From an uncultured Kiloniella sp. (GTDB taxonomy: Bacteria; Pseudomonadota; Alphaproteobacteria; Kiloniellales; Kiloniellaceae), in the NCBI RefSeq assembly GCF_937128705.1, contig NZ_CAKZMP010000067.1:1-32062 (forward strand): DNA of 32,062 nucleotides. Direction: 5' to 3'. The notes beneath the pieces were generated by a model. It was not told the origin of the DNA and did no database searches. It saw only the letters and a program-made list of their open reading frames with translations. The translations under genes were made by a program, and so were the position numbers. The first letter of the stretch is position 1; every line of letters starts with the position of its first letter. Below, one piece after another: positions 3 to 31,407 of this stretch.

Positions 3-347
3 GCCTCTGCCGCAGCCGAAGACGTGATTGCCGAATTCACAGGTGGCGCAGAGATAGGCGCGGGCGACATTGAACTGACCGCTCCCGAAATCGCCGAAAA
101 CGGAAACACTGTTCCAATCGGTGTGTCCTCGAACGGAGCAACCGAAATCATGGTTCTGGCCTTGGGCAATCCTACCCCCAAAGTGGCCACATTCAAATTC
201 GGTGAACTGGCCGCTTCCCGTTCTGCATCGACGCGGATTCGGCTGGCAGGAACGCAGGATGTGGTTGCAATTGCAAAACTGGCCGACGGGTCATTTGTGC
301 AAGCATCCAGCACGGTCAAAGTCACAATCGGCGGCTGCGGCGGCTAA
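3..347 (+). CDS. soxY: SoxY, sulfur-carrier subunit (3' part only)
   Basis: SoxY is the periplasmic subunit of the SoxYZ carrier, which holds the sulfur atom being oxidised during thiosulfate oxidation. Only the mature C-terminal part is present, because the reading frame runs in from the left edge of the window with no start or Tat signal. The protein ends in the diagnostic Gly-Gly-Cys-Gly-Gly swinging arm, whose cysteine carries the covalently bound sulfur intermediate. The body is the expected Ig-like beta-sandwich sequence with the phrase LALGNPTP. The stop codon lies 23 bases before soxZ, as in ordinary sox operons. The DNA is clearly richer in G+C than everything right of about 1730, so this gene may not belong to the same genome. 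The family call is secure. Confidence 0.95.
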   Translation, partial: ASAAAEDVIAEFTGGAEIGAGDIELTAPEIAENGNTVPIGVSSNGATEIMVLALGNPTPKVATFKFGELAASRSASTRIRLAGTQDVVAIAKLADGSFVQASSTVKVTIGGCGG

Positions 348-370: not shown

Positions 371-700
371 ATGGCAAAAGGTGTAAAGCCCCGCGTCAAG
401 GTGCCTAAAAAGGCAGCTGCTGGCGACACAATCACGATCAAGACGCTGATCAGCCACAAGATGGAATCTGGCCAGCGCAAAGACGACGACGGCAACGTCA
501 TCCCGCGCTCGATCATCAACCGGTTCACATGCGACTTCAACGGCGAGAATGTTGTTGATGTGACGCTTGAGCCAGCGATCTCAACAAACCCCTACTTGGA
601 GTTTGAAGCGAAAGTTCCGGAAGCCGGCGAGTTCAAGTTCACTTGGTACGACGACGACGGATCCGTCTACGAAGAGAGCAAGAAAATTGCCATCGAGTGA
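371..700 (+). CDS. soxZ: SoxZ, partner subunit of the SoxYZ sulfur carrier
   Basis: The product is 109 residues, the normal size for SoxZ, the Ig-like partner that forms the SoxYZ heterodimer in the periplasm. It begins MAKGVKPRVKVPKKA and lacks a signal peptide, as usual for SoxZ, which is thought to be exported together with Tat-targeted SoxY. The central RSIINRFTCDFNGE region and the final FTWYDDDGSVYEE strand are typical of the family. An AAGGAG-type ribosome site lies just upstream (about 355-360). The gene sits between soxY and soxA in the standard order and belongs to the G+C-rich sox block. Confidence 0.95.
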   Translation: MAKGVKPRVKVPKKAAAGDTITIKTLISHKMESGQRKDDDGNVIPRSIINRFTCDFNGENVVDVTLEPAISTNPYLEFEAKVPEAGEFKFTWYDDDGSVYEESKKIAIE

Positions 701-727
701 CCGCTAAACAATCCGGGAGGGATGACT

Positions 728-1582
728 ATGACCATACTTAAGGGAGCGCTTGGCGCCTTTATCTTAGCGGGAACCGTGGCGGCTGGCGCCATGGCCGACC
801 CAGTGGATGATACGCTGACAATCAACGCCGAGATGACGCTTGTCACCCGCACTGCTGCACCCGACCACGTGTCGGACGTTCTGGACGAAGTCATGTCCGG
901 CTGGCTGTTCCGCGGCACTGAAACCCGCGCAATGCAAGCCGATGATTTCGATAACCCGGGCATGATTTTTGTGGAGCAGGCGGAGGACGTCTGGAACACG
1001 GCAGATGGGTCCGAGGGCAAATCTTGCGCAGACTGTCATGGTGCTTCGTCTGACATGGCCGAGGTTCGCCCGACGTTCCCCAAGTGGAACGACGCCGCGG
1101 AAAAGGTGTTCACGATGGAGATGCAGATCAACGACTGCCGTGAAAACCGTATGGGTGCTGAAAAGTGGAAGTACACGGGCGGCGACATGGTCAATATGAC
1201 AGCGCTTCTGGCTTCTGTGTCGCGTGGCCTTCCGGTCAATGTTGCGATTGACGGCCCGGCCCAGTCGACGTGGGAGGAGGGCAAAGAACTCTATTACACA
1301 CGCACTGGTCAGTTGGAACTGTCCTGCGCGAATTGCCACGAAGACAGCTACGGCAAGATGATCCGCGCGGACCATTTGAGCCAAGGCCAGATCAACGGCT
1401 TCCCTACATATCGCTTGAAAAACACTAAGCTGAACTCGGCTCACGCTCGCTTCAAAGGGTGTGTACGCGATACACGCGCTGAAACTTACAACCCAGGTAG
1501 CCCCGAGTTTGTAGCACTTGAGTTGTATGTCGCGTCCCGTGGCAATGGTCTGTCGGTCGAAGGCCCGTCCGTCCGCAACTAA
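728..1582 (+). CDS. soxA: SoxA, c-type cytochrome subunit of SoxAX (diheme type)
   Basis: SoxA is the cytochrome c subunit of SoxAX, which couples thiosulfate oxidatively to the SoxY cysteine arm in the periplasm. I choose the ATG at 728 over the ATG at 722, because GGGAGG ends at 720 and leaves only one base before 722 but a normal gap before 728. The protein opens with a Sec signal peptide ending around AMA-DP. It has two CxxCH heme sites, CADCH at about residues 100-104 and CANCH in the second half, which marks the diheme form. Further on, RFKGCVRDTRAE holds the conserved cysteine that ligates the active-site heme and is found as a persulfide in studied SoxA proteins. Length and motifs look intact. 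The gene is part of the G+C-rich block. Confidence 0.95.
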   Translation: MTILKGALGAFILAGTVAAGAMADPVDDTLTINAEMTLVTRTAAPDHVSDVLDEVMSGWLFRGTETRAMQADDFDNPGMIFVEQAEDVWNTADGSEGKSCADCHGASSDMAEVRPTFPKWNDAAEKVFTMEMQINDCRENRMGAEKWKYTGGDMVNMTALLASVSRGLPVNVAIDGPAQSTWEEGKELYYTRTGQLELSCANCHEDSYGKMIRADHLSQGQINGFPTYRLKNTKLNSAHARFKGCVRDTRAETYNPGSPEFVALELYVASRGNGLSVEGPSVRN

Positions 1583-1682: not shown

Positions 1683-1730
1683 ATGATCTCACGGCGTGAC
1701 TTTCTTCAAACCAGCATGGCCGCCAGTGCC
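1683..1730 (+). pseudogene. soxB: soxB 5' fragment (first 16 codons, cut by the junction)
   Basis: An ATG at 1683, preceded by AAAGGA, opens a frame that starts MISRRDFLQTSMAASA. This is the twin-arginine signal start (S-R-R-D-F-L) typical of SoxB, the periplasmic dimanganese sulfate-thiol esterase, and soxB is the expected next gene after soxA. Homology stops after codon 16. The following codons are the reverse complement of mltG and carry no SoxB sequence. What remains is only a signal-peptide fragment. The identification rests on operon position and the short RR motif. Confidence 0.7.
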
Positions 1731-2648
1731 ATCCGCGACAAAATAAAGATATTTTGTTTTAGCAGGTTGAGTTACAGCTTCTAGCGCAGACAAGCCAACA
1801 TTAGCAATTGGCCCAGGAGGAAGCCGATCAATCGTATAGGTATTATAAGACGTAGGTGTCTTCAAATCTTTACGCGATAGACTGCGTTCCAAAGACTTAG
1901 CACCAAGAGTTATCCCATAGGTTACCGTAGGATCAGACTGTAAACGCATTTTCAAGTTCAAGCGATTGATAAAGACCCCTGCAACAAGTGGTCTTTCAGC
2001 TGCAATCCCGGTTTCCTTTTCAACAATAGATGCCAAAACCAATGCTTCTTCTTTGGTCTTGAGCGGTAAACCTTCCTGTCTACTGTCCCACAGTTTATCA
2101 AGACTGGCGCTTAATGCTTGTTCCATTCGGTCCAGAATTGATTGACGACTGTCTCCCCGGACAAATTGATAGGTTTCGGGCAAAAGGCTCCCTTCTTCGG
2201 GAACATCATCAATTTCACCAACTAAATCAGGATTATTCCGTAGTATTTCGACAATCTCGTAGGATGTCTTTCCTTCAGGTATTGTAATTGAGTAACTAAC
2301 AGTTTTACCGTTTACCAGTATCTCAATGACACTCTGCATTGAAGCAGCAGCCGGCATTAAAAATTCGCCTGCTTTTAAATTTCTTGCTTTTTTTGTGTAG
2401 CGAGCCCCCAACTGAAAGATAAGCGGTTCACGAATGACACCTTCATCCTTCAGGATGTTAGATATTTTCTCTAATCCAGACCCTTTAGGGATCACAATAG
2501 TAAGATCTTTTTTGAGAGGGCCAGGCGCAAGAAATTCTTGTTGCCCCATGTACAATACAATTGAAAGGCATAAAATTCCTAGGGCTATAACAAGCGAGGC
2601 CCACTTAAAGAAAGAGGGCCTCGTAGATACTTTTTGTTCTTCACTCAC
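1689..2648 (-). CDS. mltG: MltG endolytic murein transglycosylase, C-terminus lost
   Basis: MltG (YceG family) is an inner-membrane lytic transglycosylase that cleaves nascent peptidoglycan strands and is proposed to end glycan synthesis. A single membrane segment lies at about residues 14-35. The catalytic motif LASIVEKETG places the essential glutamate near residue 210, and the late motif YFVADGTGGH is present. After that histidine (complement of 1716-1718) the frame reads eight residues, AGLKKVTP, translated from antisense soxB, so the genuine gene stops at about 1716. Roughly the last 25 residues of the family are missing. The start lies 13 bases after fabF, and the fabF-mltG order is a common arrangement. 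Function of the truncated product is doubtful if the junction is real. Confidence 0.9.
   Translation of the reverse strand: MSEEQKVSTRPSFFKWASLVIALGILCLSIVLYMGQQEFLAPGPLKKDLTIVIPKGSGLEKISNILKDEGVIREPLIFQLGARYTKKARNLKAGEFLMPAAASMQSVIEILVNGKTVSYSITIPEGKTSYEIVEILRNNPDLVGEIDDVPEEGSLLPETYQFVRGDSRQSILDRMEQALSASLDKLWDSRQEGLPLKTKEEALVLASIVEKETGIAAERPLVAGVFINRLNLKMRLQSDPTVTYGITLGAKSLERSLSRKDLKTPTSYNTYTIDRLPPGPIANVGLSALEAVTQPAKTKYLYFVADGTGGHAGLKKVTP
1713..1733. other. Junction joining the sox operon to truncated mltG
   Basis: Two genes are broken at the same place. The plus strand reads the start of soxB up to about 1730. The minus strand reads MltG down to its conserved VADGTGGH, whose last codon is the complement of 1716-1718. 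The 15 bases at 1716-1730 fit both genes at once: Met-Ala-Ala-Ser-Ala on plus, and Gly-Thr-Gly-Gly-His on minus. This is a short microhomology or a k-mer-sized overlap. Composition changes here too: the 60 bases from 901 hold 36 G+C, and the 60 from 1861 hold 25. No insertion sequence, tRNA or direct repeat is visible. Confidence 0.8.
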
Positions 2649-2661
2649 AGCTTAAGTGAAC

Positions 2662-3924
2662 TTATCTGAATGCTTTAAGCACTAGGCTTGCATTCGTTCC
2701 ACCAAATCCAAAAGAATTGGAGAGCGCAACATCAATTTTCCGTTCCTGGGCTTCAAGAGGCACCAGATTAATCCCCTGACATTCGTCAGATGGATCTTCC
2801 AAATTAAGTGTTGGCGGGATCACACCTTCTTTAATAGCCTTCACGGAAAAGATTGCTTCAACAGCACCAGCAGCACCGAGTAGATGACCGATAGCTGATT
2901 TGGTTGATGACATACAAACGTCTTCGTTATTACCAAACAGACGTTTTACAGCACCAAATTCGATCTCATCCCCCAAAGGAGTAGAAGTACCATGAGCATT
3001 GATGTAATTCACATCACCTGCGTTTATACCTGCACGTTTTAGAGCAGCAGACATCGCGCGGAAACCACCATTACCATCAGGTGGTGGCGCCGTAATGTGA
3101 TGAGCGTCCCCGGACAAGCCATAACCAACAACTTCACCGTAGATTGTAGCACCACGTGCCTTCGCATGCTCAAGCTCTTCAAGCACAACGACACCAGCGC
3201 CCTCGCCCATAACGAAACCATCACGTCCTTTATCCCAAGGACGTGACCCTTTTTCAGGAGCGTCATTATAGCTGGTAGACAGCGCACGTGAAGCACAGAA
3301 GCCAGCAATTCCAAGTCTGCAAACAGCAGCTTCGGCACCACCAGCAACCATCACATCAGCATCATCTAACTGGATCAACCGCGCAGCATCACCAATGGCA
3401 TGTGCACCGGTTGAACAGGCGGTCACAACCGAGTGATTTGGTCCTTTGTATCCATAACGGATAGAAACGTGACCAGAAATCAAATTAATTAGAGATGAAG
3501 GGATAAAGAACGGTGAAAGCTTACGCGGTCCCTTTTCCTCAATCATCACCGCCCCATTTGCAATGGTTTGAAGACCTCCGATACCAGAGCCAATCATCAC
3601 ACCCGTGCGGAACAAACTTTCTTCATCTTCAGGCTTCCAGCCCGCGTCTTCAATAGCTTGTTGAGCAGCAGTAATGCCATATACAATGAAGGGATCAAGC
3701 TTACGGCGATCTTTTGCTGCGACATGATCATCCGCATTAAAGTAGCCGTCAGCGGTTTCGCCAACAGGAATTTCACCCGCAATCTGACACGGCAAATCAG
3801 CTGCCTCAAATTGAGTAATTTTACCTAGACCTGATTCACCGTTGGTAATGCGTGACCATATGTGATCAACACCACATCCAAGCGGAGATACCATACCGAG
3901 ACCGGTTATAACGACACGACGCAT
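2662..3924 (-). CDS. fabF: FabF, beta-ketoacyl-ACP synthase II
   Basis: FabF condenses malonyl-ACP with a growing acyl-ACP in type II fatty-acid synthesis. The 420-residue product is full length. The Cys-His-His triad of the thiolase fold is visible: Cys170 in VVTACSTGAHA, His311 in NAHGTSTPLGD and His347 in AIGHLLGAAGA. The C-terminal glycine-rich FGFGGTNASLV motif is also present. The ATG at 3924 has only a weak upstream GAGA-like ribosome site. The gene follows acpP with a strong hairpin between them, so expression relative to acpP is probably reduced by partial termination. It is nearly contiguous with mltG downstream. Confidence 0.97.
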   Translation of the reverse strand: MRRVVITGLGMVSPLGCGVDHIWSRITNGESGLGKITQFEAADLPCQIAGEIPVGETADGYFNADDHVAAKDRRKLDPFIVYGITAAQQAIEDAGWKPEDEESLFRTGVMIGSGIGGLQTIANGAVMIEEKGPRKLSPFFIPSSLINLISGHVSIRYGYKGPNHSVVTACSTGAHAIGDAARLIQLDDADVMVAGGAEAAVCRLGIAGFCASRALSTSYNDAPEKGSRPWDKGRDGFVMGEGAGVVVLEELEHAKARGATIYGEVVGYGLSGDAHHITAPPPDGNGGFRAMSAALKRAGINAGDVNYINAHGTSTPLGDEIEFGAVKRLFGNNEDVCMSSTKSAIGHLLGAAGAVEAIFSVKAIKEGVIPPTLNLEDPSDECQGINLVPLEAQERKIDVALSNSFGFGGTNASLVLKAFR

Positions 3925-4425: not shown

Positions 4426-5166
4426 TTATATCATGGCCATTCCGCCATTAACATGCAAGGTCTGGCCTGTCACATAAGCAGCTTCGTTACTTGAAAGATA
4501 TGCTACGGAAGCTGCGATATCCTCGGGTGAGCCAAGCTTTGCGCAAGGAATACCACTTAAAAGATTTTCTTTTATATCATCATTTAGTACATCGGTCATA
4601 GCCGTTGCAATGAAGCCAGGCGCCACGCAATTTACCGTAATCCCCCGTGATGCAACTTCTTGCGCCAGAGATTTGCTCATACCAATCAACCCTGCTTTTG
4701 ACGCAGCATAATTAGTTTGACCAGCATTACCCGTTGTTCCGACAATAGAGGTAATCCCGATGATCCGCCCCCAACGACGCTTCATCATACCGCGAAGGCA
4801 TGCTTTGGACAGACGGAAGCTTGCCGTAAGATTAACAGCAAGGACTGTATCCCAGTCTTCATCTTTTAGACGCATAGCAAGGTTATCACGGGTAAGTCCC
4901 GCATTGTTTACCAAGATATCCAGCTGCCCCATCGCCTCATCAGCACGCTTCACCAAATCAGCTGGTGCATCTGGGTCTGATAGATTCGCGGGTAAAACGT
5001 GGACCCGATCACCGCCAAGTTCAGCAGCTACCTTTTCAAGCGCTTCTACTCTGGTTCCAGAAAGACCAACAACGGCCCCCTGATCATGCAACGCCTTGGC
5101 AATTGCACTACCAATACCGCCGGAAGCACCTGTTACAAGTGCTGTCTTACCGGAAAGATCAAACAT
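4426..5166 (-). CDS. fabG: FabG, 3-oxoacyl-ACP reductase
   Basis: FabG performs the NADPH-dependent reduction of 3-oxoacyl-ACP, the first reductive step of each elongation round. The 246-residue protein is a classical short-chain dehydrogenase. It has the cofactor loop TGASGGIG at about residues 12-19, NNAG near 87-90, the catalytic Asn112, Ser140, Tyr153 and Lys157, and the C-terminal GGMAM. A clear AGGAG precedes the ATG. Placement between fabD and acpP separates it from the many other SDR proteins, including the one at 15178-15900. Confidence 0.97.
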   Translation of the reverse strand: MFDLSGKTALVTGASGGIGSAIAKALHDQGAVVGLSGTRVEALEKVAAELGGDRVHVLPANLSDPDAPADLVKRADEAMGQLDILVNNAGLTRDNLAMRLKDEDWDTVLAVNLTASFRLSKACLRGMMKRRWGRIIGITSIVGTTGNAGQTNYAASKAGLIGMSKSLAQEVASRGITVNCVAPGFIATAMTDVLNDDIKENLLSGIPCAKLGSPEDIAASVAYLSSNEAAYVTGQTLHVNGGMAMI

Positions 5167-5256
5167 CCTATACTCCTAAGATCAATATTTATGCGCAGAA
5201 GGGTACTCAATTTCAGACATGATACCAAGTACCAGAACTTCTGCTTTGAGATTTTT

Positions 5257-6198
5257 TTAAAGACTCTTCAACAGGCTTTCAATTTCTGCGGGCGTTCCGG
5301 CATTTGCAGAAGTAAGGTCCCGGTCAATACGGCGATTAAGACCACTCAATACTTTACCAGCACCAAGTTCAACCAACTGCTCAACTTCATTTACGCGCAT
5401 ATAAAGTACGGACTCGCGCCAACGAACAACACCCGTCACCTGCTGGACAAGATATTTACGAATCGTCTCCGGATCCGTGACCATATCAGCCGAAACATTA
5501 CAAACAACGGGTATAGATGGGGCTCGTAAAGTCACAGAAGCCAAAGCTTCGGCCATGGCATCCGCCGCAGGAGCCATTAATGAGCAATGGAAAGGGGCTG
5601 ACACTGGTAACAATACAGCTCGCTTTGCCCCTTTGGCTTTTGCAATTTCCAAACAACGTTCAACAGCAGCTTTGTGACCACTAACAACAACCTGCCCAGG
5701 CGCATTATCATTCGCAGCGGAGCAAACTTCACCCTGCGCTGCTTCTTCTGCAACAGCTTGAGCGTCTTCAAAATCCAACCCAAGAAGAGCCGCCATAGCG
5801 CCCTCACCAACAGGAACGGCCAGTTGCATTGACTGACCACGTAGTTTCAGCAAACGTGCTGCATCAGCCAACTCTAGGGTGCCAACGGCCGTTAATGCTG
5901 AATACTCACCAAGAGAATGTCCCGCAACAAAAGCAGCATGATCACTCAAGGATAAGCTACCTTCGTTCTGCAACACACGGGTCACTGCTGTGCTTACCGC
6001 CATCAAAGCAGGTTGGGCATTTTCTGTAAGCGTGAGTTCGTCAATTGGTCCCTCAAACATCAAGGCTGATAACTTTTGCCCAAGAGCTTCATCAACTTCT
6101 TCAAAAACTTCGCGGGCTACTGGAAAAGCTTCCGCTAGCTCTTTCCCCATTCCAACGGCCTGAGATCCCTGCCCAGGAAAAACAAATGCACGCTTCAT
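5257..6198 (-). CDS. fabD: FabD, malonyl-CoA:ACP transacylase
   Basis: FabD moves malonate from CoA to ACP and supplies the extender unit for fatty-acid synthesis. I choose the ATG at 6198 (MKRAFVFPGQGSQ), which has AAGGAG at good spacing. The upstream in-frame ATG at 6240 has no ribosome site and would add 14 non-conserved residues. The 313-residue protein shows the GQGSQ loop, the nucleophile Ser95 in GHSLGEYSA and His204 in PVSAPFHCSLM. It is the first gene of the minus-strand fab cluster, 90 bases before fabG. Confidence 0.97.
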   Translation of the reverse strand: MKRAFVFPGQGSQAVGMGKELAEAFPVAREVFEEVDEALGQKLSALMFEGPIDELTLTENAQPALMAVSTAVTRVLQNEGSLSLSDHAAFVAGHSLGEYSALTAVGTLELADAARLLKLRGQSMQLAVPVGEGAMAALLGLDFEDAQAVAEEAAQGEVCSAANDNAPGQVVVSGHKAAVERCLEIAKAKGAKRAVLLPVSAPFHCSLMAPAADAMAEALASVTLRAPSIPVVCNVSADMVTDPETIRKYLVQQVTGVVRWRESVLYMRVNEVEQLVELGAGKVLSGLNRRIDRDLTSANAGTPAEIESLLKSL

Positions 6199-7352: not shown

Positions 7353-7919
7353 ATGCAAGTCGTCCTTCTAGAACGCATCGAAAAACTTGGTCAAATGGGT
7401 GATGTTGTCACCGTGAAACCTGGTTATGCTCGTAACTTCCTGCTTCCAAAGCAGAAAGCTATGCGCGCAACTAAATCAAATCTTGAACACTTCGAAAACC
7501 AGCGTGCTCAGCTGGAAGCAGACAACCTCAAGCGTCGCGAAGAAGCCGAACAGGTTTCTGGTAAGCTTGAAGGCCTAACTGTTTCCCTGATTCGTCAGGC
7601 TGGTGATTCCGGGCAGCTTTACGGTTCTGTAAACACTCGTGATATCGCTGAAGCAGTTACTGAAGCTGGCATCACTGTTGCTCGCTCTCAGGTTGTTCTC
7701 AACAAAGTTATCAAAACTCTTGGTCTGCACGACGTTAAAGTTATGCTACACCCAGAAGTTACCGTTAACATTGTTGTTAACACTGCACGTTCTGCTGAAG
7801 AAGCTGAGCTACAGCTTAGCTCTGGCGGTGCTGTTTCCAATGAGGAAGCCGCTGAAGAACGTGAAGCTGTTGCAGAAGTAGTTGAAGAAGAAATCACAGA
7901 AGAAGAAACAGAAGCGTAA
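7353..7919 (+). CDS. rplI: Ribosomal protein L9 with an acidic C-terminal extension
   Basis: bL9 binds 23S rRNA near the L1 stalk and reaches across the ribosome surface. The N-terminal domain is unmistakable ([32 protein letters not shown]), followed by the connecting helix and a C-terminal domain to about residue 148. Residues after 150 are an acidic, Glu-rich extension ending [11 protein letters not shown]. The 188-residue length exceeds the roughly 150 of Escherichia coli L9, and such tails are seen in related bacteria. AAGGAG precedes the ATG. Last gene of the operon, closed by the hairpin at 7951. Confidence 0.97.
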
Positions 7920-7950
7920 GTCTTCTTTTCTCACTTTTGAGTTTTATGAG

Positions 7951-7979
7951 ACGGCACCTTTCGAGGTGCCGTTTTCATT
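7951..7979 (+). terminator. Terminator of the rpsF operon
   Basis: ACGGCACCT (7951-7959) and AGGTGCCGT (7964-7972) form a perfect nine-pair stem closed by the stable tetraloop TTCG and followed by TTTCATTT. It stands 31 bases after the rplI stop. Confidence 0.9.
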
Positions 7980-8103
7980 TCCAACCTGTACTTCTCATCC
8001 CTAAAGAGCTACATTCCTCTGCGCTCTTTTTTTGCCCTGAACAGGGAACAAAAAACAGATATGATCAAGCGCTTGTTGATAATAATTTTCTAGATTCGAG
8101 GCC

Positions 8104-9630
8104 ATGGAAGATCACGCGATTCCTCCCTTTGATGTTTCAGACATCCCCTTTGATGATGGACAAGAACTCCGCTCTCCTCCTCATAATTACGAGGTTGAGC
8201 AAGCTCTGTTAGGCGCAGTACTGTCTAACAACAAAGCTTTTGAAAGAATCTCTGATTTCCTCCTTCCTGTTCATTTTGCTGATCCTGCTCATGCTGAGAT
8301 TTATCATGCCTGCAAAACACTCATTGAACGCGGACAACTGGCAAACGCTACGACTCTAAAGAACTTTTTTGCAAGCAACGGTAACTTGGAAGAGTTGGGC
8401 GGCACGAGCTACCTGGCTGAGCTTCAAAGCAACGTTGTTACAATCATCAATGCGTCTGAATACGGCAAGATCATTCACGACCTCTATATCCGTAGAGAGC
8501 TAATTGATCTTGGCGAAGAGGTCGTCAATCATGCCCACACACATGAGTTAGAACTTTCAGCGACCCAGCAAATTGAGGGCGCAGAGCAAAAGCTCTATCG
8601 TTTGGCAGAAGAAGGTCAGACCGAAGGCGGCTTCGTATCATTTGCTGATGCGCTTGCAACATCAATGAATTACATCGATGTTGCCATGAAACAGGGCGAT
8701 GGTATTTCCGGCGTATCAAGTGGTCTGCGTGATGTTGATAAACTTCTTGGTGGCTTCCACCATTCTGATCTGATTATCCTGGCCGCTCGCCCGTCCATGG
8801 GTAAAACCGCCTTTGTAACAAACATCGCCTTTAACATCGCGCAAGCAACCAAATCCGGGCACAATGCCGAAGGCGATGAAGTCGACATTCCGATGTCAGT
8901 TGCTTTCTTTTCATTGGAGATGTCAGCAGATCAGCTGGCGAGCAGGATTTTGTCTTCTGCGGCGGAAACACCATCGCATTTAATGCGTAAAGGTGAGCTA
9001 ACTGAAGATCAGTTCGAGCACGTCTTTCAGATCAGTCGTGCCCTATCCAACTATAAGCTCTTTATTGATGACACACCGAACCTGACAATACCGGGGCTTC
9101 GAAATCGTGTCAGGCGTCTGAAAAGACAACATGGTTTGGATATTATTATCGTCGATTACCTACAGCTGATGTCAGGTGCTCCCGGCGGCAAAAGCGATAG
9201 CCGTGTTCAGGAAGTTTCAGAAATTTCACGTGGCCTGAAAGGGATTGCGAAAGAGATGAATGTACCCGTCATCGCGCTTTCCCAGCTTTCCCGTCAAACA
9301 GAACAACGCGAAGACAAACGTCCCCAGCTCTCTGACCTTCGTGAATCCGGCTCGATTGAACAGGATGCTGATGTTGTGATCTTCCTCTATCGTGATGAAT
9401 ATTACATTGCCCGTGAAAAACCGGGACAAGGTGCCGATGATTCAACCGATAGATTTCACGAAAAACTGGCCAATCACGAAGCACGTCTGGATGCAGCCAG
9501 AAACAAAGCCGAGATGATTGTCGGTAAACAACGTCACGGCCCTATTGGCTCTGTTGAACTCCACTTTAATGGCGAGTTTACGAAATTCTCTGACCTGGCA
9601 GAGGAAGACCAACTTCCTGAAAGCTATTAA
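8104..9630 (+). CDS. dnaB: DnaB, replicative DNA helicase
   Basis: DnaB is the hexameric helicase that unwinds DNA at the fork. The 508-residue protein has the N-terminal DnaB domain (about 25-130, opening HNYEVEQALLGAVL), then the RecA-like motor with Walker A ARPSMGKT at about 228-235. The Walker B region is DIIIVDYLQLMSG, followed by the conserved SRGLKGIAKEMNVPVIALSQLSRQ and the DLRESGSIEQDADVV segment. There is no sign of an intein, which this gene often carries elsewhere. The start has a GAGG very close upstream, so a small start error is possible. It follows the S18/L9 operon, a widespread order. Confidence 0.97.
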   Translation: MEDHAIPPFDVSDIPFDDGQELRSPPHNYEVEQALLGAVLSNNKAFERISDFLLPVHFADPAHAEIYHACKTLIERGQLANATTLKNFFASNGNLEELGGTSYLAELQSNVVTIINASEYGKIIHDLYIRRELIDLGEEVVNHAHTHELELSATQQIEGAEQKLYRLAEEGQTEGGFVSFADALATSMNYIDVAMKQGDGISGVSSGLRDVDKLLGGFHHSDLIILAARPSMGKTAFVTNIAFNIAQATKSGHNAEGDEVDIPMSVAFFSLEMSADQLASRILSSAAETPSHLMRKGELTEDQFEHVFQISRALSNYKLFIDDTPNLTIPGLRNRVRRLKRQHGLDIIIVDYLQLMSGAPGGKSDSRVQEVSEISRGLKGIAKEMNVPVIALSQLSRQTEQREDKRPQLSDLRESGSIEQDADVVIFLYRDEYYIAREKPGQGADDSTDRFHEKLANHEARLDAARNKAEMIVGKQRHGPIGSVELHFNGEFTKFSDLAEEDQLPESY

Positions 9631-9898: not shown

Positions 9899-10672
9899 AT
9901 GCCCATTCTTCAACCTCTTGGTAATCTTACTCTACGTTTTTTGGAGATTGTCGGGCGTCTTTCCATTTTTGCTGGAACAGCAATTTCGCATTGCTTTCGG
10001 CCCCCCTTCTATCCGAAGCTTATCCTGAAGCAGATGATCGAGGTTGGGTATTATTCTCTCCCCGTCGTTGGTCTGACCGCAATCTTTACCGGTATGGTTC
10101 TCGCGCTGCAAAGCTACACTGGTTTCGCACGTTTTTCTGCTGAAAGCGCTATCCCAAACGTCGTTATCGTCTCGATCACCCGTGAACTTGGCCCTGTGTT
10201 AGCCGGTTTGATGGTTGCTGGTCGCGTTGGCGCCGCCATGGCTGCCGAAATTGGTACGATGCGGGTTACAGAACAAATCGACGCCCTATACACCCTAGCA
10301 ACAAACCCTTTTAAATACCTTATTGCTCCCCGTGTTATCGCAGGGGTGTTAACGCTTCCCCTCCTCGTACTTGTTGCAGATACAATTGGTGTTTTCGGGG
10401 GATATCTCGTTTCCGTACACAAGCTTGGTTTTAACCCGGCAACTTACATCAAGAACACCATTGATTTCATGGAAAATCTTGATGTTATCTCTGGCCTTGT
10501 CAAAGCAGCAGCCTTTGGATTTATTATTACCTTGATGGGGTGTTACCACGGTTTCCATTCAAGAGGTGGCGCACAAGGCGTGGGCGCAGCGACCACAAAC
10601 GCGGTTGTATCCGCTTCTATCCTCATTCTCACCTTCAACTACATCATAACTGAGTTGTTTTTCTCAATATGA
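9899..10672 (+). CDS. mlaE: MlaE-type phospholipid ABC transporter permease
   Basis: MlaE permeases form the membrane part of an MCE-type ABC transporter that moves phospholipids between inner and outer membranes. The 257-residue protein has about five or six membrane segments and the family core ELGPVLAGLMVAGRVGAAMA at about 96-115, followed by EIGTMRVTEQIDAL. The tail ITLMGCYHGFHSRGGAQGVG is also conserved. The ATG at 9899 has no strong ribosome site. Its stop overlaps the mlaF start (ATGA), so the pair is translationally coupled. The partner MCE protein (MlaD) and periplasmic MlaC are not in this window and must lie elsewhere if present. Confidence 0.9.
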   Translation: MPILQPLGNLTLRFLEIVGRLSIFAGTAISHCFRPPFYPKLILKQMIEVGYYSLPVVGLTAIFTGMVLALQSYTGFARFSAESAIPNVVIVSITRELGPVLAGLMVAGRVGAAMAAEIGTMRVTEQIDALYTLATNPFKYLIAPRVIAGVLTLPLLVLVADTIGVFGGYLVSVHKLGFNPATYIKNTIDFMENLDVISGLVKAAAFGFIITLMGCYHGFHSRGGAQGVGAATTNAVVSASILILTFNYIITELFFSI

Positions 10673-11469
10673 GCAACAAAACAGATATACCCGGCAAGGA
10701 CATCAGAATAAAGATCAGGGGACTGACCAAAGCCTTTGGCCCCAAAGTCATCCTCAACAATCTGGATCTGGATGTTTACGCAGGCGAATCCCTTGTTGTC
10801 ATAGGTGGCTCGGGGACAGGAAAATCTGTGCTGTTAAAGTGCATTCTAGGTTTATTACGGCCTGATGCTGGAACTGTAGAGATCAATGGACAAAACATCG
10901 TTGGCCTCAACAGTGATGACATGGAAAAGGTACGCCGAAAGTTTGGCATGCTTTTTCAATATGCCGCCCTTTTTGATTCACTCACCATCCTCGACAATGT
11001 TGCATTCGGTTTGATCCAAGCTCACGGTGTTCCTAAAAAAGAGGCACATCGTATCGCCCTTGAAAAACTATCCGCAGTTGGATTGGGGGAACGTTTTGCA
11101 GCTAAGTTTCCTGCTGAACTTTCGAGCGGCATGAAAAAGCGGGTTGGCCTTGCACGCGCAATTGCGACAACACCAGAGACCCTGTTCTTTGATGAACCAA
11201 CAACGGGTCTGGACCCTGTCATGGGCGACGTCATTGATCAGTTGATAGTTAAGTCTGTTAAGGAACTTGGCGCAACAGGTCTAACAATTACGCACGACAT
11301 GGATTCAGCAAAACGAATTTCTGATCGTATCGCCATGCTCTATGACGGCAAGATCACATGGGTTGGCCCAACAGACGAACTCGAGAAAACTGATAATCCT
11401 TATGTCCATCAATTTATAAATGGACTATTAGACGGACCGATAAAAGTCAGCCTTGCCCATAATGATTGA
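10669..11469 (+). CDS. mlaF: MlaF-type ABC transporter ATPase
   Basis: This is the cytoplasmic ATPase that powers the MlaE permease. In the 266-residue protein Walker A is GGSGTGKS (about 46-53), the Q-loop is FQYAALFDSLT, and the signature is LSSGMKKRVGLARA (from about 151). Walker B is TLFFDEPTTGLDP with the catalytic Glu near 176, and the switch is THDM with His near 209. The signature has Ser where LSGG is usual, which is a minor change. The FQ-AALFDSLTILDNVAFGL stretch is typical of the Mla/Ttg2A group. The start overlaps the mlaE stop by four bases. Confidence 0.92.
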   Translation: MSNKTDIPGKDIRIKIRGLTKAFGPKVILNNLDLDVYAGESLVVIGGSGTGKSVLLKCILGLLRPDAGTVEINGQNIVGLNSDDMEKVRRKFGMLFQYAALFDSLTILDNVAFGLIQAHGVPKKEAHRIALEKLSAVGLGERFAAKFPAELSSGMKKRVGLARAIATTPETLFFDEPTTGLDPVMGDVIDQLIVKSVKELGATGLTITHDMDSAKRISDRIAMLYDGKITWVGPTDELEKTDNPYVHQFINGLLDGPIKVSLAHND

Positions 11470-11550
11470 CCAACAGCCTAATACCCTTATCAAGCCCGTC
11501 TTAAGTCGGGTAAATTAAAAACGGCACCACGATAAATTCAGGAGATCCCT

Positions 11551-12963
11551 TTGGCCCGCCCCGTAATTCGCTACGTTTGTCAGTCCTGCGGTGCTGACTA
11601 TGCAAAATGGTCAGGGAAATGTGATTCCTGTGGCGAGTGGAACTCTATCACAGAAGAAGCTGGGTCATCATCCCCCGTTCCAGGTGGCCTTGGTAAAAAG
11701 AATGTCCGTAAAGGCAAACAAATTGAGTTTGTTAGCCTAGAGGGTACAAGCAAGCCCGTTCCCAGAATGATCAGTAAAAACCTTGAATTCGATCGGGTTT
11801 GTGGTGGCGGACTCGTTCCAGGCTCAGCCGTTTTGATCGGTGGAGACCCAGGCATTGGGAAATCAACGCTTCTCACCCAGATATTAGCAGCCCTCACAAC
11901 AAGCGCAGGTGTTAAGTGTGTTTACATCTCTGGCGAGGAAGCCATTGATCAGGTCCGTCTGAGAGCCCGTCGTCTGGGTTTGAAAGGCGATGATTTTCTA
12001 CTCGCCTCGGCAACGTCTGTTCGTGACATCGCCACCACACTTGATGAACATGACGCTCCACAAGTTGTCGTTATCGATTCTATACAAACAATGTTTGTGG
12101 ACAGCCTGGATTCTGCCCCCGGAACAGTTTCTCAAGTGCGGGCATCGGCCCAAGAACTGATCCAACTGGCCAAGGCACGGGGCTTTAGCGTTTTACTGGT
12201 TGGTCACGTCACAAAAGAAGGCGTCATTGCCGGGCCGAAAGTTCTGGAACACATGGTTGATACCGTTCTTACTTTTGAAGGGGAACGCGGGCATCATTTC
12301 AGAATCTTACGCGCCGTAAAAAACCGTTTTGGTCCAACGGATGAAATTGGCGTCTTCGAGATGTCAGAACAAGGGCTTGAGCAAGTTTCAAATCCCTCAG
12401 CGCTCTTTCTTGCAGAACGGCGTGGCAATGTTACAGGCGCAGCCGTTTTTGCAGGGCTGGAAGGCACGCGCCCAGTTCTCGTCGAAATACAAGCACTTGT
12501 CTCTCCCTCACAACAGGCAAACCCAAGACGCGCAGTTGTCGGTTGGGATTCTGGTCGATTGGCAATGATCCTCGCTGTTCTGGAAGCTAGATGTGGTCTC
12601 GTACTCGCCGGGAATGAAGTTTATCTAAATGTTGCCGGGGGTCTGCGGATCGGAGAACCAGCAGCAGATATGGCCGTTGCTGCCGCTTTAATTTCAGCAG
12701 CCATGGACATTCCCGTCCCCGAAGATACTGTTGTATTTGGGGAAATTGGCCTTTCAGGTGAAATCAGGGCCGTCAACCAATCTGAAAGCAGGTTAAAAGA
12801 AGCCACAAAGCTTGGTTTTAAAAATGCAATAATTCCGCCTATTCGTGCAAAGAAGAATTGTAATAAGGCCGCTTCGGGGTTAGATACAAGACAGATTGAA
12901 CATCTGCAGGATCTGGTTGCATTGTTTGCGGCTAAATCAGTCAAGAAAACTGCGGGTGGCTAA
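11551..12963 (+). CDS. radA: RadA, recombination and branch-migration protein
   Basis: RadA helps process recombination intermediates during DNA repair. The 470-residue protein begins at a TTG codon with AGGAG ending seven bases upstream. No ATG fits before the zinc finger, so TTG is well supported. Cys10, Cys13, Cys24 and Cys27 form the N-terminal zinc finger (CQSCGADY, CDSCGEW). Walker A GGDPGIGKST lies at about 97-106, the RadA-specific KNRFG motif at 257-261, and a Lon-protease-like domain in the C-terminal half (GDxxVFGEIGLSGEIR type). It is followed closely by cvpA and purF, a conserved neighbourhood. Confidence 0.96.
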   Translation: MARPVIRYVCQSCGADYAKWSGKCDSCGEWNSITEEAGSSSPVPGGLGKKNVRKGKQIEFVSLEGTSKPVPRMISKNLEFDRVCGGGLVPGSAVLIGGDPGIGKSTLLTQILAALTTSAGVKCVYISGEEAIDQVRLRARRLGLKGDDFLLASATSVRDIATTLDEHDAPQVVVIDSIQTMFVDSLDSAPGTVSQVRASAQELIQLAKARGFSVLLVGHVTKEGVIAGPKVLEHMVDTVLTFEGERGHHFRILRAVKNRFGPTDEIGVFEMSEQGLEQVSNPSALFLAERRGNVTGAAVFAGLEGTRPVLVEIQALVSPSQQANPRRAVVGWDSGRLAMILAVLEARCGLVLAGNEVYLNVAGGLRIGEPAADMAVAAALISAAMDIPVPEDTVVFGEIGLSGEIRAVNQSESRLKEATKLGFKNAIIPPIRAKKNCNKAASGLDTRQIEHLQDLVALFAAKSVKKTAGG

Positions 12964-13709: not shown

Positions 13710-15167
13710 ATGACACTCGAAGATTTTCATGATGATGATAAGCTCCACGAAGAATGCGGTGTTTATGCCGTGCATGGACACGAAGGGGCTGCGGCTCTTG
13801 TTACTCTGGGCCTTCATGCTCTTCAGCATCGAGGACAAGAAGCGGCTGGCATCATCAGCTATGATGGTAATGAGTTTTATAACCATCGTGCCCTGGGGCA
13901 TGTCGGCGATAACTTTTCATCACAGGAAGTTATCGAACGCCTGAAGGGGCATGTATCTATCGGGCACACGCGCTATTCTACTACTGGCGAAACAGCTTTG
14001 CGAAACGTGCAACCCCTCTTTGCTGACCTTCACGACGGTGGCTTTGCACTTTGCCATAATGGAAATCTGACAAACTCTCAAAAAATCCGTGACCAATTGG
14101 TCATGCGTGGCTCCATCTTTCAGTCAACAATGGACACCGAGGTGATTTTACACCTCGTCGCAACCTCTATTCAGGATACCATTGTTGGCAAAGTTACTGA
14201 TGCCATTCAGCGTATTGAGGGTGCCTACGCCCTTCTATGCATGACGAAAGAAGGCGTTATCGCCGTCCGCGACCCCCATGGGATCAGACCTTTGGTTCTT
14301 GGCGAACTAGAGGGCGGTTATGTCGTCGCCTCCGAGACCTGTGCTCTGGACATTATCGGGGCAAACTTCATTCGGGATGTTGATCCCGGTGAGATGATTG
14401 TCATTAATGATGACGGTGTTCAGTCCCTGCGTCCTTTTCCGCCAACACGTCAGCAAACATGTATTTTCGAATATATCTATTTTGCCCGGCCAGATTCAGT
14501 CATTGATGGTGTCAGTGTTTACGATGCACGTAAAAACATCGGGAAAGAACTGGCACAAGAAAGTCATGTAGAATCAGATGTTGTTGTTCCGGTCCCGGAT
14601 TCAGGTGTTCCCGCCGCGATCGGCTATTCACAAGAATCCGGTGTTCCTTTTGAACTCGGCATAATTCGAAATCACTATGTCGGCCGGACCTTTATTGAAC
14701 CAGGCCAACAGATCCGAAATCTTGGCGTAAAGCTGAAGCACAATGCAAACAAAGCCGTTCTTGAAGGAAAGCGCGTCATTCTTGTAGATGATTCGCTGGT
14801 GCGCGGAACGACCTCTATCAAGATCGTCGAGATGGTAAAAGCTGCTGGCGCGAAAGAAGTCCACATGCGCATCGCCTCTCCGCCGATTGGATATCCATAT
14901 TTCTATGGCATTGATATTTCACAATCCAAAGAGTTGCTTGCTGCCCAAATGGATCTGGAAGAAATGGCCAAGCATATTGGTGTTGATAGCCTCGCATTCT
15001 TAACCATTGACGGTATGTACCGTGCGATGGGCAAAGAAGGGCGTAATCCAGAGGCACCTCAGTATTGTGATGCACCTTTTACCGGGCACTATCCAACTCA
15101 GATCGACGACTATAAAGATCACGTCGTTGACGTGCCAAGATTTATGCAATCAAAAAAAGCCGGGTAG
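13710..15167 (+). CDS. purF: PurF, amidophosphoribosyltransferase
   Basis: PurF commits PRPP and glutamine to purine synthesis by making phosphoribosylamine. I choose the ATG at 13710, with AGGA about 11 bases upstream, rather than the GTG at 13662 that overlaps cvpA. With this start a 15-residue propeptide precedes Cys16 (EECGVYAVHGHEGAA), the N-terminal nucleophile exposed after cleavage. The glutaminase domain is followed by the phosphoribosyltransferase domain with the PRPP loop VILVDDSLVRGTT at about 356-368. Compared with the Bacillus-type enzyme, the second iron-sulfur ligand position reads PYFYG with Tyr instead of Cys, and the C-terminal Cys pair is incomplete (QYCDAPF), so a 4Fe-4S cluster is unlikely. 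Confidence 0.96.
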   Translation: MTLEDFHDDDKLHEECGVYAVHGHEGAAALVTLGLHALQHRGQEAAGIISYDGNEFYNHRALGHVGDNFSSQEVIERLKGHVSIGHTRYSTTGETALRNVQPLFADLHDGGFALCHNGNLTNSQKIRDQLVMRGSIFQSTMDTEVILHLVATSIQDTIVGKVTDAIQRIEGAYALLCMTKEGVIAVRDPHGIRPLVLGELEGGYVVASETCALDIIGANFIRDVDPGEMIVINDDGVQSLRPFPPTRQQTCIFEYIYFARPDSVIDGVSVYDARKNIGKELAQESHVESDVVVPVPDSGVPAAIGYSQESGVPFELGIIRNHYVGRTFIEPGQQIRNLGVKLKHNANKAVLEGKRVILVDDSLVRGTTSIKIVEMVKAAGAKEVHMRIASPPIGYPYFYGIDISQSKELLAAQMDLEEMAKHIGVDSLAFLTIDGMYRAMGKEGRNPEAPQYCDAPFTGHYPTQIDDYKDHVVDVPRFMQSKKAG

Positions 15168-15177
15168 GACGTTTTTC

Positions 15178-15900
15178 ATGAAGAATGCAGATAACGGGCG
15201 GCTTGAAGGCCGGATCGCACTTATTACAGGTGCGTCTCGTGGTATTGGACGCGCTGTTGCCAAACGCTTTGCACAAGAAGGGGCTCAACTCTTGCTCATG
15301 GCCAGAACAGTTGGTGCCCTTGAAGAAATTGATGATGAGATTCGCTCTGAAGGCGGTAAAAACCCTATCCTCATTCCACATGATCTTAAAAACATGGATG
15401 GCCTAGATCAACTAGGCGCATCACTATACGATCGCTATGGCAAACTTGATATCCTCGTTGGAAATGCAGGATCACTTGGTCCGCTATCCCCCATTGGTCA
15501 TATCAAACCCAAGATCTGGCAAGAGACTTTTGATATCAATGTCACCGCGAACTATCGTCTCATCAGAAGTCTTGACCCTTTGCTAAAGAAATCAGACGCG
15601 GGTCGAGCTATCTTTGTCACGACAGGATCAACAGCCAAAGCCTATTGGAGTCTTTATAAAGCCTCTAAAGCTGCTCTGAATACTTTGGTTCAGTCCTATG
15701 CCTGTGAAATTGAAAAAACGAACGTCAAAGCTAATCTGATTTCACCCGGACCAATCAGAACAACAATGCGGGAAAAAGCTTTCCCCGGCGAAGACCCTAT
15801 GACACTCAGAGCACCAGAAGAGATCACTGATACTTTTGTTGATCTGGCTTCTGTCGACTGTACCTTGAATGGACAGTTTATTGATATCAGAGAAGAATAG
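15178..15900 (+). CDS. Short-chain dehydrogenase/reductase next to purF
   Basis: This 240-residue NAD(P)-dependent oxidoreductase has the classical SDR layout: TGASRGIG near residues 18-25, GNAG in place of NNAG, the Asn of FDINVTANY, then Thr-Thr-Gly-Ser and YKASK with the catalytic Tyr and Lys. The C-terminal part is shorter than in FabG. The ATG at 15178 follows a TAGGA at good spacing and lies ten bases after purF, so it is translated from the same transcript. The substrate cannot be told from sequence. A similar SDR after purF is common in alphaproteobacteria, but I know of no proven purine role. Confidence 0.85.
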   Translation: MKNADNGRLEGRIALITGASRGIGRAVAKRFAQEGAQLLLMARTVGALEEIDDEIRSEGGKNPILIPHDLKNMDGLDQLGASLYDRYGKLDILVGNAGSLGPLSPIGHIKPKIWQETFDINVTANYRLIRSLDPLLKKSDAGRAIFVTTGSTAKAYWSLYKASKAALNTLVQSYACEIEKTNVKANLISPGPIRTTMREKAFPGEDPMTLRAPEEITDTFVDLASVDCTLNGQFIDIREE

Positions 15901-15919
15901 CTTGTCCTGACTACTTACC

Positions 15920-15948
15920 AAAAAAGGCTCCTTACCGGAGCCTTTTTT
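15920..15948. terminator. Bidirectional terminator between the SDR gene and der
   Basis: AAAAAAGGCTCC (15920-15931) and GGAGCCTTTTTT (15937-15948) form a perfect stem with a five-base loop. It has a T-run on both strands and serves the two converging genes. Confidence 0.92.
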
Positions 15949-20098: not shown

Positions 20099-20110
20099 CG
20101 TGCTAAGTGA

Positions 20111-21370
20111 TTAGGCAAACCGCTTTGGACTATATGGGGAAAGGTCAAAAGATGACTTCTTTCCTCCGACTATAGAAGAAACTACTTTTCCTGTAATTCC
20201 CCCCAAGGTTAGCCCTACGTGCTGGTGTCCAAAAGCGAGTATGATGTTCCTATTTTCCGGAGAAGGGCCTATCACAGGTAACGCATCTGGCATTGATGGC
20301 CTAAACCCCAGCCATTCACTCTGACGTTCTCCCAAATCTGATAGTGCTATTTTAGCCGTTCTTTCCAGATAATTCATCAAGCTTTCAGTATAATTCTTTT
20401 GTAATCCACCAAGCTCTACAGTACCCGCTATACGTACCTGATCGCTCAATGGTGTCATATAAAATCCTTTTTCCGCCCACCCTACAGGACGGCTAAGAGA
20501 TGCGTTCTGTGCATCGAGCATAATGTGGTAACCACGTTCTGTATCCAACGGCATCTTCCCAACAAGAGAAGGAAGCAAATCCAGTGAATACGCACCTGCC
20601 GCGACAACACTTTTTTGAACGAGAAATTCCACATTTTCGCACTGGACGCGCACGTTTTGATCACCAGAACTTTCCAGTTTTTTAACATTTTCCAGAAAAA
20701 CGGCCCCTCCTTGACTTACAAAATGCTCTGTTAATCGCTCAATCAATTTCCCTGGATACAAAAACTGAAACGATTTATCAAAAAACACTCCCTTATAAAA
20801 TATGTTCGTCAAGCTTGGTTCCAGTTCATATATTTCACCAGCCTCGACTTCACGAAGGGACACGCCACGTTCTTGTCTGGCTAAAATATCTGAATTTGCG
20901 GCTCTATAGCCTTTTTCAGTATTATATAAATAAAGACAGCCCTGTCGTTGAATAAGATCTTTCGCACCAGCGTCTTCTATTAAGGGCATCAGGCCACTTT
21001 CTGCTTTCGAAAGCAGCACCGCCAAAGCATTAATAATGCGTGTAACTTCTTTTGGCCGACAATGGGATATAAACTGGCTAAGCCAAGGAAACATCCGATA
21101 AATATAATTCCACTTTACGGCAAAAGGACTATTCTTGCTCAGAACCATGGCAGGAACTTTAAATGGTAATGACGGAGAATTAATTGGTATGCAGGCATAA
21201 TCCGCAAAGGTACATGCACTTCCGCTGGCAGTACTGTTACCCGGAGAACAGCGATCAATAATACAAACTGAATACCCGCTCTTCTGGAGCCATAGAGCAG
21301 AAGAAATGCCAACCATACCCCCGCCAATTACGGCAACATCGTATTTCTTTATTTCTCTAGGATTAGACAT
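20111..21370 (-). CDS. DadA-like FAD-dependent D-amino acid dehydrogenase/oxidoreductase
   Basis: This 419-residue protein belongs to the DAO family of FAD enzymes. The N-terminal dinucleotide-binding motif is VAVIGGGMVGISSALWLQKSG (from about residue 12) with an acidic residue at the end of the second strand (CIID). The C-terminal segment WLGFRPSMPDALPVIGPS followed by GHQHVGLTLGGITG is characteristic of DadA-type D-amino acid dehydrogenases, which pass electrons to the respiratory chain. Substrate specificity cannot be fixed. No racemase or amino acid transporter lies beside it. The stop is only 12 bases from the converging lipoprotein stop, with no hairpin between. Confidence 0.85.
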   Translation of the reverse strand: MSNPREIKKYDVAVIGGGMVGISSALWLQKSGYSVCIIDRCSPGNSTASGSACTFADYACIPINSPSLPFKVPAMVLSKNSPFAVKWNYIYRMFPWLSQFISHCRPKEVTRIINALAVLLSKAESGLMPLIEDAGAKDLIQRQGCLYLYNTEKGYRAANSDILARQERGVSLREVEAGEIYELEPSLTNIFYKGVFFDKSFQFLYPGKLIERLTEHFVSQGGAVFLENVKKLESSGDQNVRVQCENVEFLVQKSVVAAGAYSLDLLPSLVGKMPLDTERGYHIMLDAQNASLSRPVGWAEKGFYMTPLSDQVRIAGTVELGGLQKNYTESLMNYLERTAKIALSDLGERQSEWLGFRPSMPDALPVIGPSPENRNIILAFGHQHVGLTLGGITGKVVSSIVGGKKSSFDLSPYSPKRFA

Positions 21371-21582
21371 ACAACTCTCTACAAAATATGCGATGACAAT
21401 TCAGACCTAGCCAATTAACCAGAAGCTAAATCAATATCGGGATAAAATCTGAATAGATCAACATCTTTGGCAGATATCATTCAGGCTTATTGCCCCGGAA
21501 TGCTTCGGCTATTAGGTATGGACCTTCTCATAAAAATCAGCCAACCTATAAGAATGGATATTCGCTACATAAAGGGTGCTGA

Positions 21583-30491: not shown

Positions 30492-31202
30492 TTATTTTTC
30501 CTTAAAGCCTGTCGCAACCAAAAACATTTCCGAGGAGTCTTTCCGGCTGGAATCTGGTTTGAAATGGCGCACGCTTTTAAATTTGGTTTTCACTAACTTC
30601 AACAACTCGGCCTGCGCCCCGCCCTGTAGGACCTTGCCGATAAAACTTCCGCCGGGAACCAGAACTTCCTCGGCAAACATCAGGGCAGTCTCCATCAGGC
30701 CCATAATCCGTAGGTGATCCGTCTGAGGATGGCCCGTTGCCGCCGCCGCCATATCCGACAGAACAATATCGGCAGGTCCATTCAGTTCAGCCTTAAGACG
30801 TGCAGGCGCATCGTCATCCATAAAGTCGCCCTGCAGTAGAACAACCCCGGCAATCGGCTCGACCTCCTGAAGATCCATACCCACGATATGCGCGCCGGGT
30901 CCACAGCGTTCAACAGCGACCTGACACCAGCCCCCTGGGGCGCATCCTAGATCGACAATGCGGGAATTCTTTTTGAAAATTTTAAACTTGTCGTCGATCT
31001 GAGCAATCTTAAAGGCTGCCCGTCCCCGATAGCCGCGCTTTTTGGCTTCTTGAACATAGGGATCGTTGAGTTGACGGTTCAACCAGCGCGCAGAAGAGTT
31101 CGAGCGCCGAGCCGCAGTTTTCACACGGACTTTCAGTCCCCGCCCCGAAGGGTTACTGCTGGGGCGCGAGCCACCTTTTTTGGATTTACCTGAAGAGCTC
31201 AT
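30492..31202 (-). CDS. rlmE: RlmE (FtsJ), 23S rRNA 2'-O-methyltransferase
   Basis: RlmE methylates the ribose of U2552 in 23S rRNA, a late step of 50S maturation. The 236-residue protein has a SAM site VDLGCAPGGWCQVA (83-96). The catalytic tetrad is Lys65 (RAAFKIAQID), Asp150 (IVLSDMA), Lys190 (SFIGKVLQGG) and Glu225 (SSEMFLVATG). The first 40 residues are a basic Ser/Gly/Arg extension absent from the Escherichia coli protein, probably for RNA contact. GGAAGA lies close before the ATG. It is a single-gene unit between guaB and the transporter. Confidence 0.96.
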   Translation of the reverse strand: MSSSGKSKKGGSRPSSNPSGRGLKVRVKTAARRSNSSARWLNRQLNDPYVQEAKKRGYRGRAAFKIAQIDDKFKIFKKNSRIVDLGCAPGGWCQVAVERCGPGAHIVGMDLQEVEPIAGVVLLQGDFMDDDAPARLKAELNGPADIVLSDMAAAATGHPQTDHLRIMGLMETALMFAEEVLVPGGSFIGKVLQGGAQAELLKLVKTKFKSVRHFKPDSSRKDSSEMFLVATGFKEK

Positions 31203-31407
31203 TCTTCCACTTTCTAACTGCCGCTTTCTGACACGTGATCACAGGATCAAAAAAATAATCTTAAACGTACCGAGGCGATGCTATACATCAGGATGAATAA
31301 AACCTCAAATCACGAACGCACCGCGATATCACTCTCACAATAATAACGCTATCTTTTTCCAAACATATCACGTGCAAAGTAAATTATAGACTAAGGATAG
31401 CACACAT

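Follow-up and report, generated by a model that had tools for sequence, protein, structure and literature searches.

In the draft genome of an uncultured Kiloniella-like bacterium (GCF_937128705.1), a soxB gene and an mltG gene are both broken at one place, and this junction is very probably artificial, produced by an inter-genome misassembly through a 21-mer that the two genes have in common. Misassembly is favoured because the sequences on the two sides of the join belong to different lineages, the other half of mltG was found on a second contig that carries a tail of its own, exact 77-base overlaps occur between contig ends, and further contig ends look chimeric. As judged from sequence comparison, the apparent gene fusion is almost certainly an ordinary assembly artefact, and this Kiloniella most likely has an intact MltG whose gene is divided over two contigs. 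The presence of sox genes on the contig gives no ground for attributing them to this bacterium. The case matters only as a warning, as the contig taken at face value describes a thiosulfate-oxidising Kiloniella with a truncated MltG, and neither follows.

The window, i.e. the whole stretch of DNA analysed, is the entire contig C67 (NCBI accession number NZ_CAKZMP010000067.1) with a length of 32,062 nt. The draft genome contains 4,473,082 bases in 442 contigs, and has an estimated completeness of 97.5% and contamination of 0.9%, scores that do not expose contig ends of the kind described here. The set of contigs compared included 86 of the 442, the window among them, and 13 of the 86 were entered with 20 kb only. 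Of this set, 73 contigs were readable, and 13, all shorter than 3 kb, read as N, so that a remainder of the sox genes on them would go unseen. The features around the join are as follows.

3-347, plus strand: soxY, 5' end truncated by the contig end, foreign piece (Pfam PF13501, E 4.5e-31)
371-700, plus strand: soxZ, foreign piece (Pfam PF08770, E 3.5e-31)
722-1582, plus strand: soxA, foreign piece (Pfam PF21342, E 8.3e-42; up to 81% identity to homologues in genome family f30)
1683-1733, plus strand: opening 17 codons of soxB, then lost; the translation, MISRRDFLQTSMAASAI, agrees with 15 of 15 homologues examined
1713-1733, no strand: join, a 21-base stretch common to soxB (plus strand) and mltG (minus strand), with a sensible reading on both strands and divergence outside
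1713-2648, minus strand: mltG with its end missing, native to Kiloniella (Pfam YceG, E 4.8e-76)
1713-32062, no strand: Kiloniella chromosome segment, native (collinearity with K. litopenaei and K. majae)

Sequence at the join

The likeness to SoxB ends with the 17 codons at 1683-1733. In the SoxB homologues used for comparison (15 loci among 236 matching genomes), the sequence [GST]MA[AT][SA]A[ILVM] followed by [LYV]G is kept in all 15, and the window has R instead. The mltG gene, on the minus strand, starts at 2648 and can be followed to GTGGHA at 1713, after which 7 stray residues, GLKKVTP, precede the stop, giving GGHAG in the window where four Kiloniella genomes have GGHAF and a fifth row has GGHSF. 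A sequence-only reading of this DNA had proposed that the two genes are broken at one point, and both were indeed found to be lost there. However, it had ended MltG with eight residues of antisense soxB where there are 7, and its common stretch of 15 bases (1716-1730) falls inside the actual stretch of 21 (1713-1733).

The length of the common stretch was deduced from homologues of soxB and mltG, those of soxB standing in for the donor gene beyond codon 17, and would be 22 bases if the next soxB codon of the donor starts with C, which is the case for 3 of the 15 homologues. The homology of a 1600-2000 query to DNA of the same genus begins at 1713-1716 (query positions 114-117) in 8/8 genomes, and collinearity with both K. 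majae and K. litopenaei begins exactly at 1713. The G+C content is 55.7% in 1-1733 versus 46.7% in the remainder of the window, and the drop reported earlier, from 36 to 25 G+C per 60 bases at 901 and 1861, was exact in its counts.

The 21-base stretch has a single occurrence in the draft genome, allowing up to 2 mismatches. For random sequence of even composition, the number of 21-mers found by chance is ~0.0035 in common between a piece of 1.7 kb and a single genome of 4.47 Mb, ~9 repeated inside a 4.47 Mb genome itself, and ~200 in common between a 4.47 Mb genome and a 100 Mb metagenome, so that many false crossings would be expected in the 21-mer graph of a community. A 21-base stretch is unexpected at an arbitrary breakpoint, whereas an assembler working at k = 21 would be expected to leave one.

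The Kiloniella segment and the missing half of mltG

Residues 1-312 of MltG share 89-91% amino acid (aa) identity with four Kiloniella genomes. The region 1713-31220 matches K. litopenaei in a single block (29.6 kb, 83.5%), and 1713-32062 maps onto K. majae as four ordered blocks, with 20099-21518 and two short gaps unaligned. The right end of the contig (31.2-32.06 kb) is also native, as judged by its match to K. majae. The next gene after mltG in the window is fabF, and the gene order in 1713-3924 is that of the fabF-mltG-infA region of Kiloniella. However, mltG is followed by infA in both K. majae and K. litopenaei, whereas here mltG is broken and its tail and infA are located on a separate contig, C259.

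The part on C259 (at about 7850-8337) was found by searching the draft genome with the mltG-infA region of K. majae. It maps to K. majae coordinates 548900-549390, and C259 as a whole to 542272-549390. As C67 starts at 549405 on the same strand as C259, a gap of 14 bases lies between the two contigs, and their ends are likewise 14 bases apart in K. litopenaei. The missing part of mltG was thus located elsewhere in the assembly. For soxB, no SoxB over the cut-off was found in the readable contigs of the draft genome.

Beyond 8337, C259 continues for ~1.06 kb (8338-9401) with a G+C content of 25-38%, and this part is unaligned to that K. majae contig. A DNA search of plasmid and phage records gave no match to this tail, and its likeness to DUF6750, a family that belongs to conjugative elements, is weak (24.6 bits against a cut-off of 27). 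C67 and C259, which are due to meet inside mltG, therefore each run into different DNA, and the tail of C259 is a second chimeric-looking end at mltG.

An old and real junction, formed by a rearrangement within the lineage, would be seen in related genomes, and its recurrence across a family of genomes had been named beforehand as the case that speaks against misassembly. The junction was found in none of the eight same-genus genomes, mltG and infA are in order in K. majae and K. litopenaei, and no point in support of such a rearrangement was found, leaving it a probability close to nil. A real island, acquired horizontally and placed in the end of mltG, has somewhat more to recommend it. The sox operon would then be cut in soxB at a 21-base microhomology, with the AT-rich DNA of C259 forming the other border. 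A clean insertion would give the arrangement seen, as C67 and C259 adjoin in two relatives with 14 bases missing, and the weak DUF6750 match of the C259 tail also counts in its favour. However, the supposed borders are very unlike in G+C content (55.7% for the sox genes of C67 versus 25-38% for C259), and soxB ends after 17 codons with no SoxB detected over the cut-off in the readable contigs. The finding in 0/8 same-genus genomes also counts against an island, though one specific to this strain would not need to be shared. An island at this site is considered very improbable.

Three other places in the Kiloniella segment stand out. A second join near 15900 was considered and rejected, as K. 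litopenaei and two further genomes are continuous there. At 15900-15920, K. majae holds about 10.4 kb of extra DNA, and because this is absent from K. litopenaei and the two other genomes it represents ordinary gene-content variation. The 1.4 kb at 20099-21518 that is unaligned in K. majae includes an FAD-oxidoreductase-like reading frame and lies inside the block collinear with K. litopenaei. A second copy of 31042-31253 with 91% identity is present on C167 (coordinates 4505-4701), and looks like a dispersed repeat.

Kinship of the sox piece

The gene order of Kiloniella is departed from in 1-1712, and the sox piece, which lies entirely on the plus strand, is made up of soxY-soxZ-soxA and the 17 soxB codons. 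SoxA was absent from all 8 other Kiloniella genomes searched, one of which is only 77% complete. It was present in 11 of 14 genomes of the same family outside the genus Kiloniella, which is a further point for an acquired island. However, the SoxA of the window does not group with the SoxA of the Kiloniella family. For the SoxA tree, 45 loci were entered and 6 were without a SoxA reading frame, so that 39 and the query make up the 40 rows, one of them on a very long branch. In this tree, the window SoxA clusters with 17 rows of family f30 (support 100/99), with genomes G669 and G593 nearest, and is separated from the SoxA rows of the Kiloniella family.

The sox DNA also resembles 17 plasmid records, from Paracoccus, Rhodobacter or Ruegeria (9, the best ones among these), Rhizobium (4), Methylosinus (2), Ciceribacter (1) and Indioceanicola (1). 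Because 9 of the 17, including the best, are from Paracoccus, Rhodobacter or Ruegeria, family f30 would appear to be the Rhodobacteraceae. The search for a donor gave matches in 46 of 385 genomes of the class and 236 of 394 genomes of family f30, both samples from larger groups, and no close donor of the sox piece was found among those genomes. As the top-scoring DNA match to soxA-soxB is 75% identical, with shorter ones reaching up to 78%, no donor species is named. The soxA-soxB DNA had no match in phage records.

The gene order is the same as in the sox operon of Rhodobacteraceae (soxY-soxZ-soxA-soxB), and SoxA shares up to 81% identity with its f30 homologues, but the window carries only a 1.7 kb slice of such an operon, in which soxY is truncated where the contig starts and soxB where the join lies. 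The SoxA tree and the collinearity place the two sides of the join in different lineages, and this supports the earlier advice that the annotations of the two sides should be kept apart, though a recent transfer would look the same. If an island were real, which is very doubtful, its Rhodobacteraceae-like sox genes would be the first in Kiloniella among the genomes searched here.

Assembler signature and other contig ends

Exact 77-base overlaps between contig ends were found for two pairs of the 73 readable contigs, C18/C279 and C29/C36. Overlaps of this length are left by de Bruijn assemblers when the final k is 77, and 21, 33, 55 and 77 are a common SPAdes series of k. Because of these overlaps, the assembler appears to have been of the SPAdes type, and the first member of the series is the length of the stretch common to soxB and mltG. 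The same series was used as user-defined values in one published study (PMC11528492). Twelve common diagonals of at least 21 bases were detected between readable contigs, including the two exact end overlaps. Four others touch a contig end and belong to a likeness that is longer or broken (C13/C40, C15/C44 and two of C33/C38), and the remaining six are matches of 21-45 bases away from exact ends.

Under inter-genome misassembly, the Kiloniella segment 1713-32062 would have been joined to 1.7 kb of sox DNA from another, Rhodobacteraceae-like alphaproteobacterium in the same sample, most likely by a multi-k de Bruijn assembler of the SPAdes type. The same 21-mer would be present in soxB and, on the opposite strand, in mltG, and at k = 21 both paths would pass via one node. 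Where the true coverage is thin, the assembler would then cross from one genome into the other. This implies that the sample was a mixture, that the smallest k was 21 and that coverage was thin at this place. A thin true path is also suggested by the 14 bases missing between C259 and C67. The junction resembles inter-genome translocation misassemblies, or chimeric contigs, in short-read metagenomes, a case for which the metaMIC paper (PMC9661791) is cited, in that two lineages meet at a short common stretch near a contig end and both genes are cut. It differs in no essential respect, but here both strands of the stretch carry coding sequence, and the counterpart of the broken mltG was found on C259 of the same assembly.

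A DNA chimera formed in the laboratory at the common stretch, via template switching in whole-genome amplification, PCR or ligation, and then copied by the assembler is the foremost of the other explanations and is still improbable. Laboratory chimeras likewise use short common stretches, which counts for it. However, one chimeric molecule should not displace the true path, and the stretch is 21 bases long, the smallest k of the series suggested by the 77-base overlaps. In addition, C259 also changes to other DNA no more than 14 bases from this place, which fits a gap in coverage better than a single chimeric molecule. The sequence-only reading had left the choice between a de Bruijn-type misassembly and a microhomology-mediated rearrangement. 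The two lineages, the C259 contig, the 77-base overlaps and the other odd ends argue for the former and against the latter.

The base composition of contig ends was examined using the terminal 800 bases of contigs of at least 4 kb, with an end counted as an outlier when its G+C content fell beyond the 0.5-99.5% limits set by 527 interior windows. Outliers made up 10 of 117 ends versus ~1.2 expected, or 8 of 115 without the ends of C67 and C259, which were known beforehand. Two of the ten, in C15 and C44, have sequence in common, and an end with an odd G+C content may be a natural island. Chimeric ends are not a general feature of the assembly, since both ends of C5, C43 and C52 are native. However, an island at mltG leaves the other odd ends unexplained, for example that in rpoC on C56, and a real island thus explains less than misassembly does.

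The end of C56 (~11470-12421) carries a non-Kiloniella rpoC followed by an rpsL-like start, and is a chimeric contig end. Identity to K. majae is 86-95% per 100 bases over 10601-11500 and 58-77% afterwards, and the final long stretch of identity (29 bases) extends to 11469, placing the change inside rpoC. The tail is likely gammaproteobacterial, an impression given by its protein sequence, and in a search that covered E. coli only it matches E. coli rpoC (69% identity over 62% of the query).

Joins to DNA of other organisms are suspected at three further ends. The G+C content shifts abruptly at the end of C14 (~13950-14619), with 17-27% across 14001-14600. In C10, the first 2.2 kb (1-2200) has 54-62% G+C and a Hint-domain reading frame, and in C7 the last 1.6 kb (~4430-6032) has 27-35% G+C and encodes an MMPL protein. 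The impression given by the protein sequences is that the C7 tail may be archaeal and the C14 tail may come from Bacteroidota. An overlap between C14 and C59 was also considered as a contig overlap and rejected, as the identity is 82% over 131 columns and was read as a repeat. This stretch (C14 coordinates 12754-12884; C59 coordinates 1-126) is perhaps another dispersed repeat.
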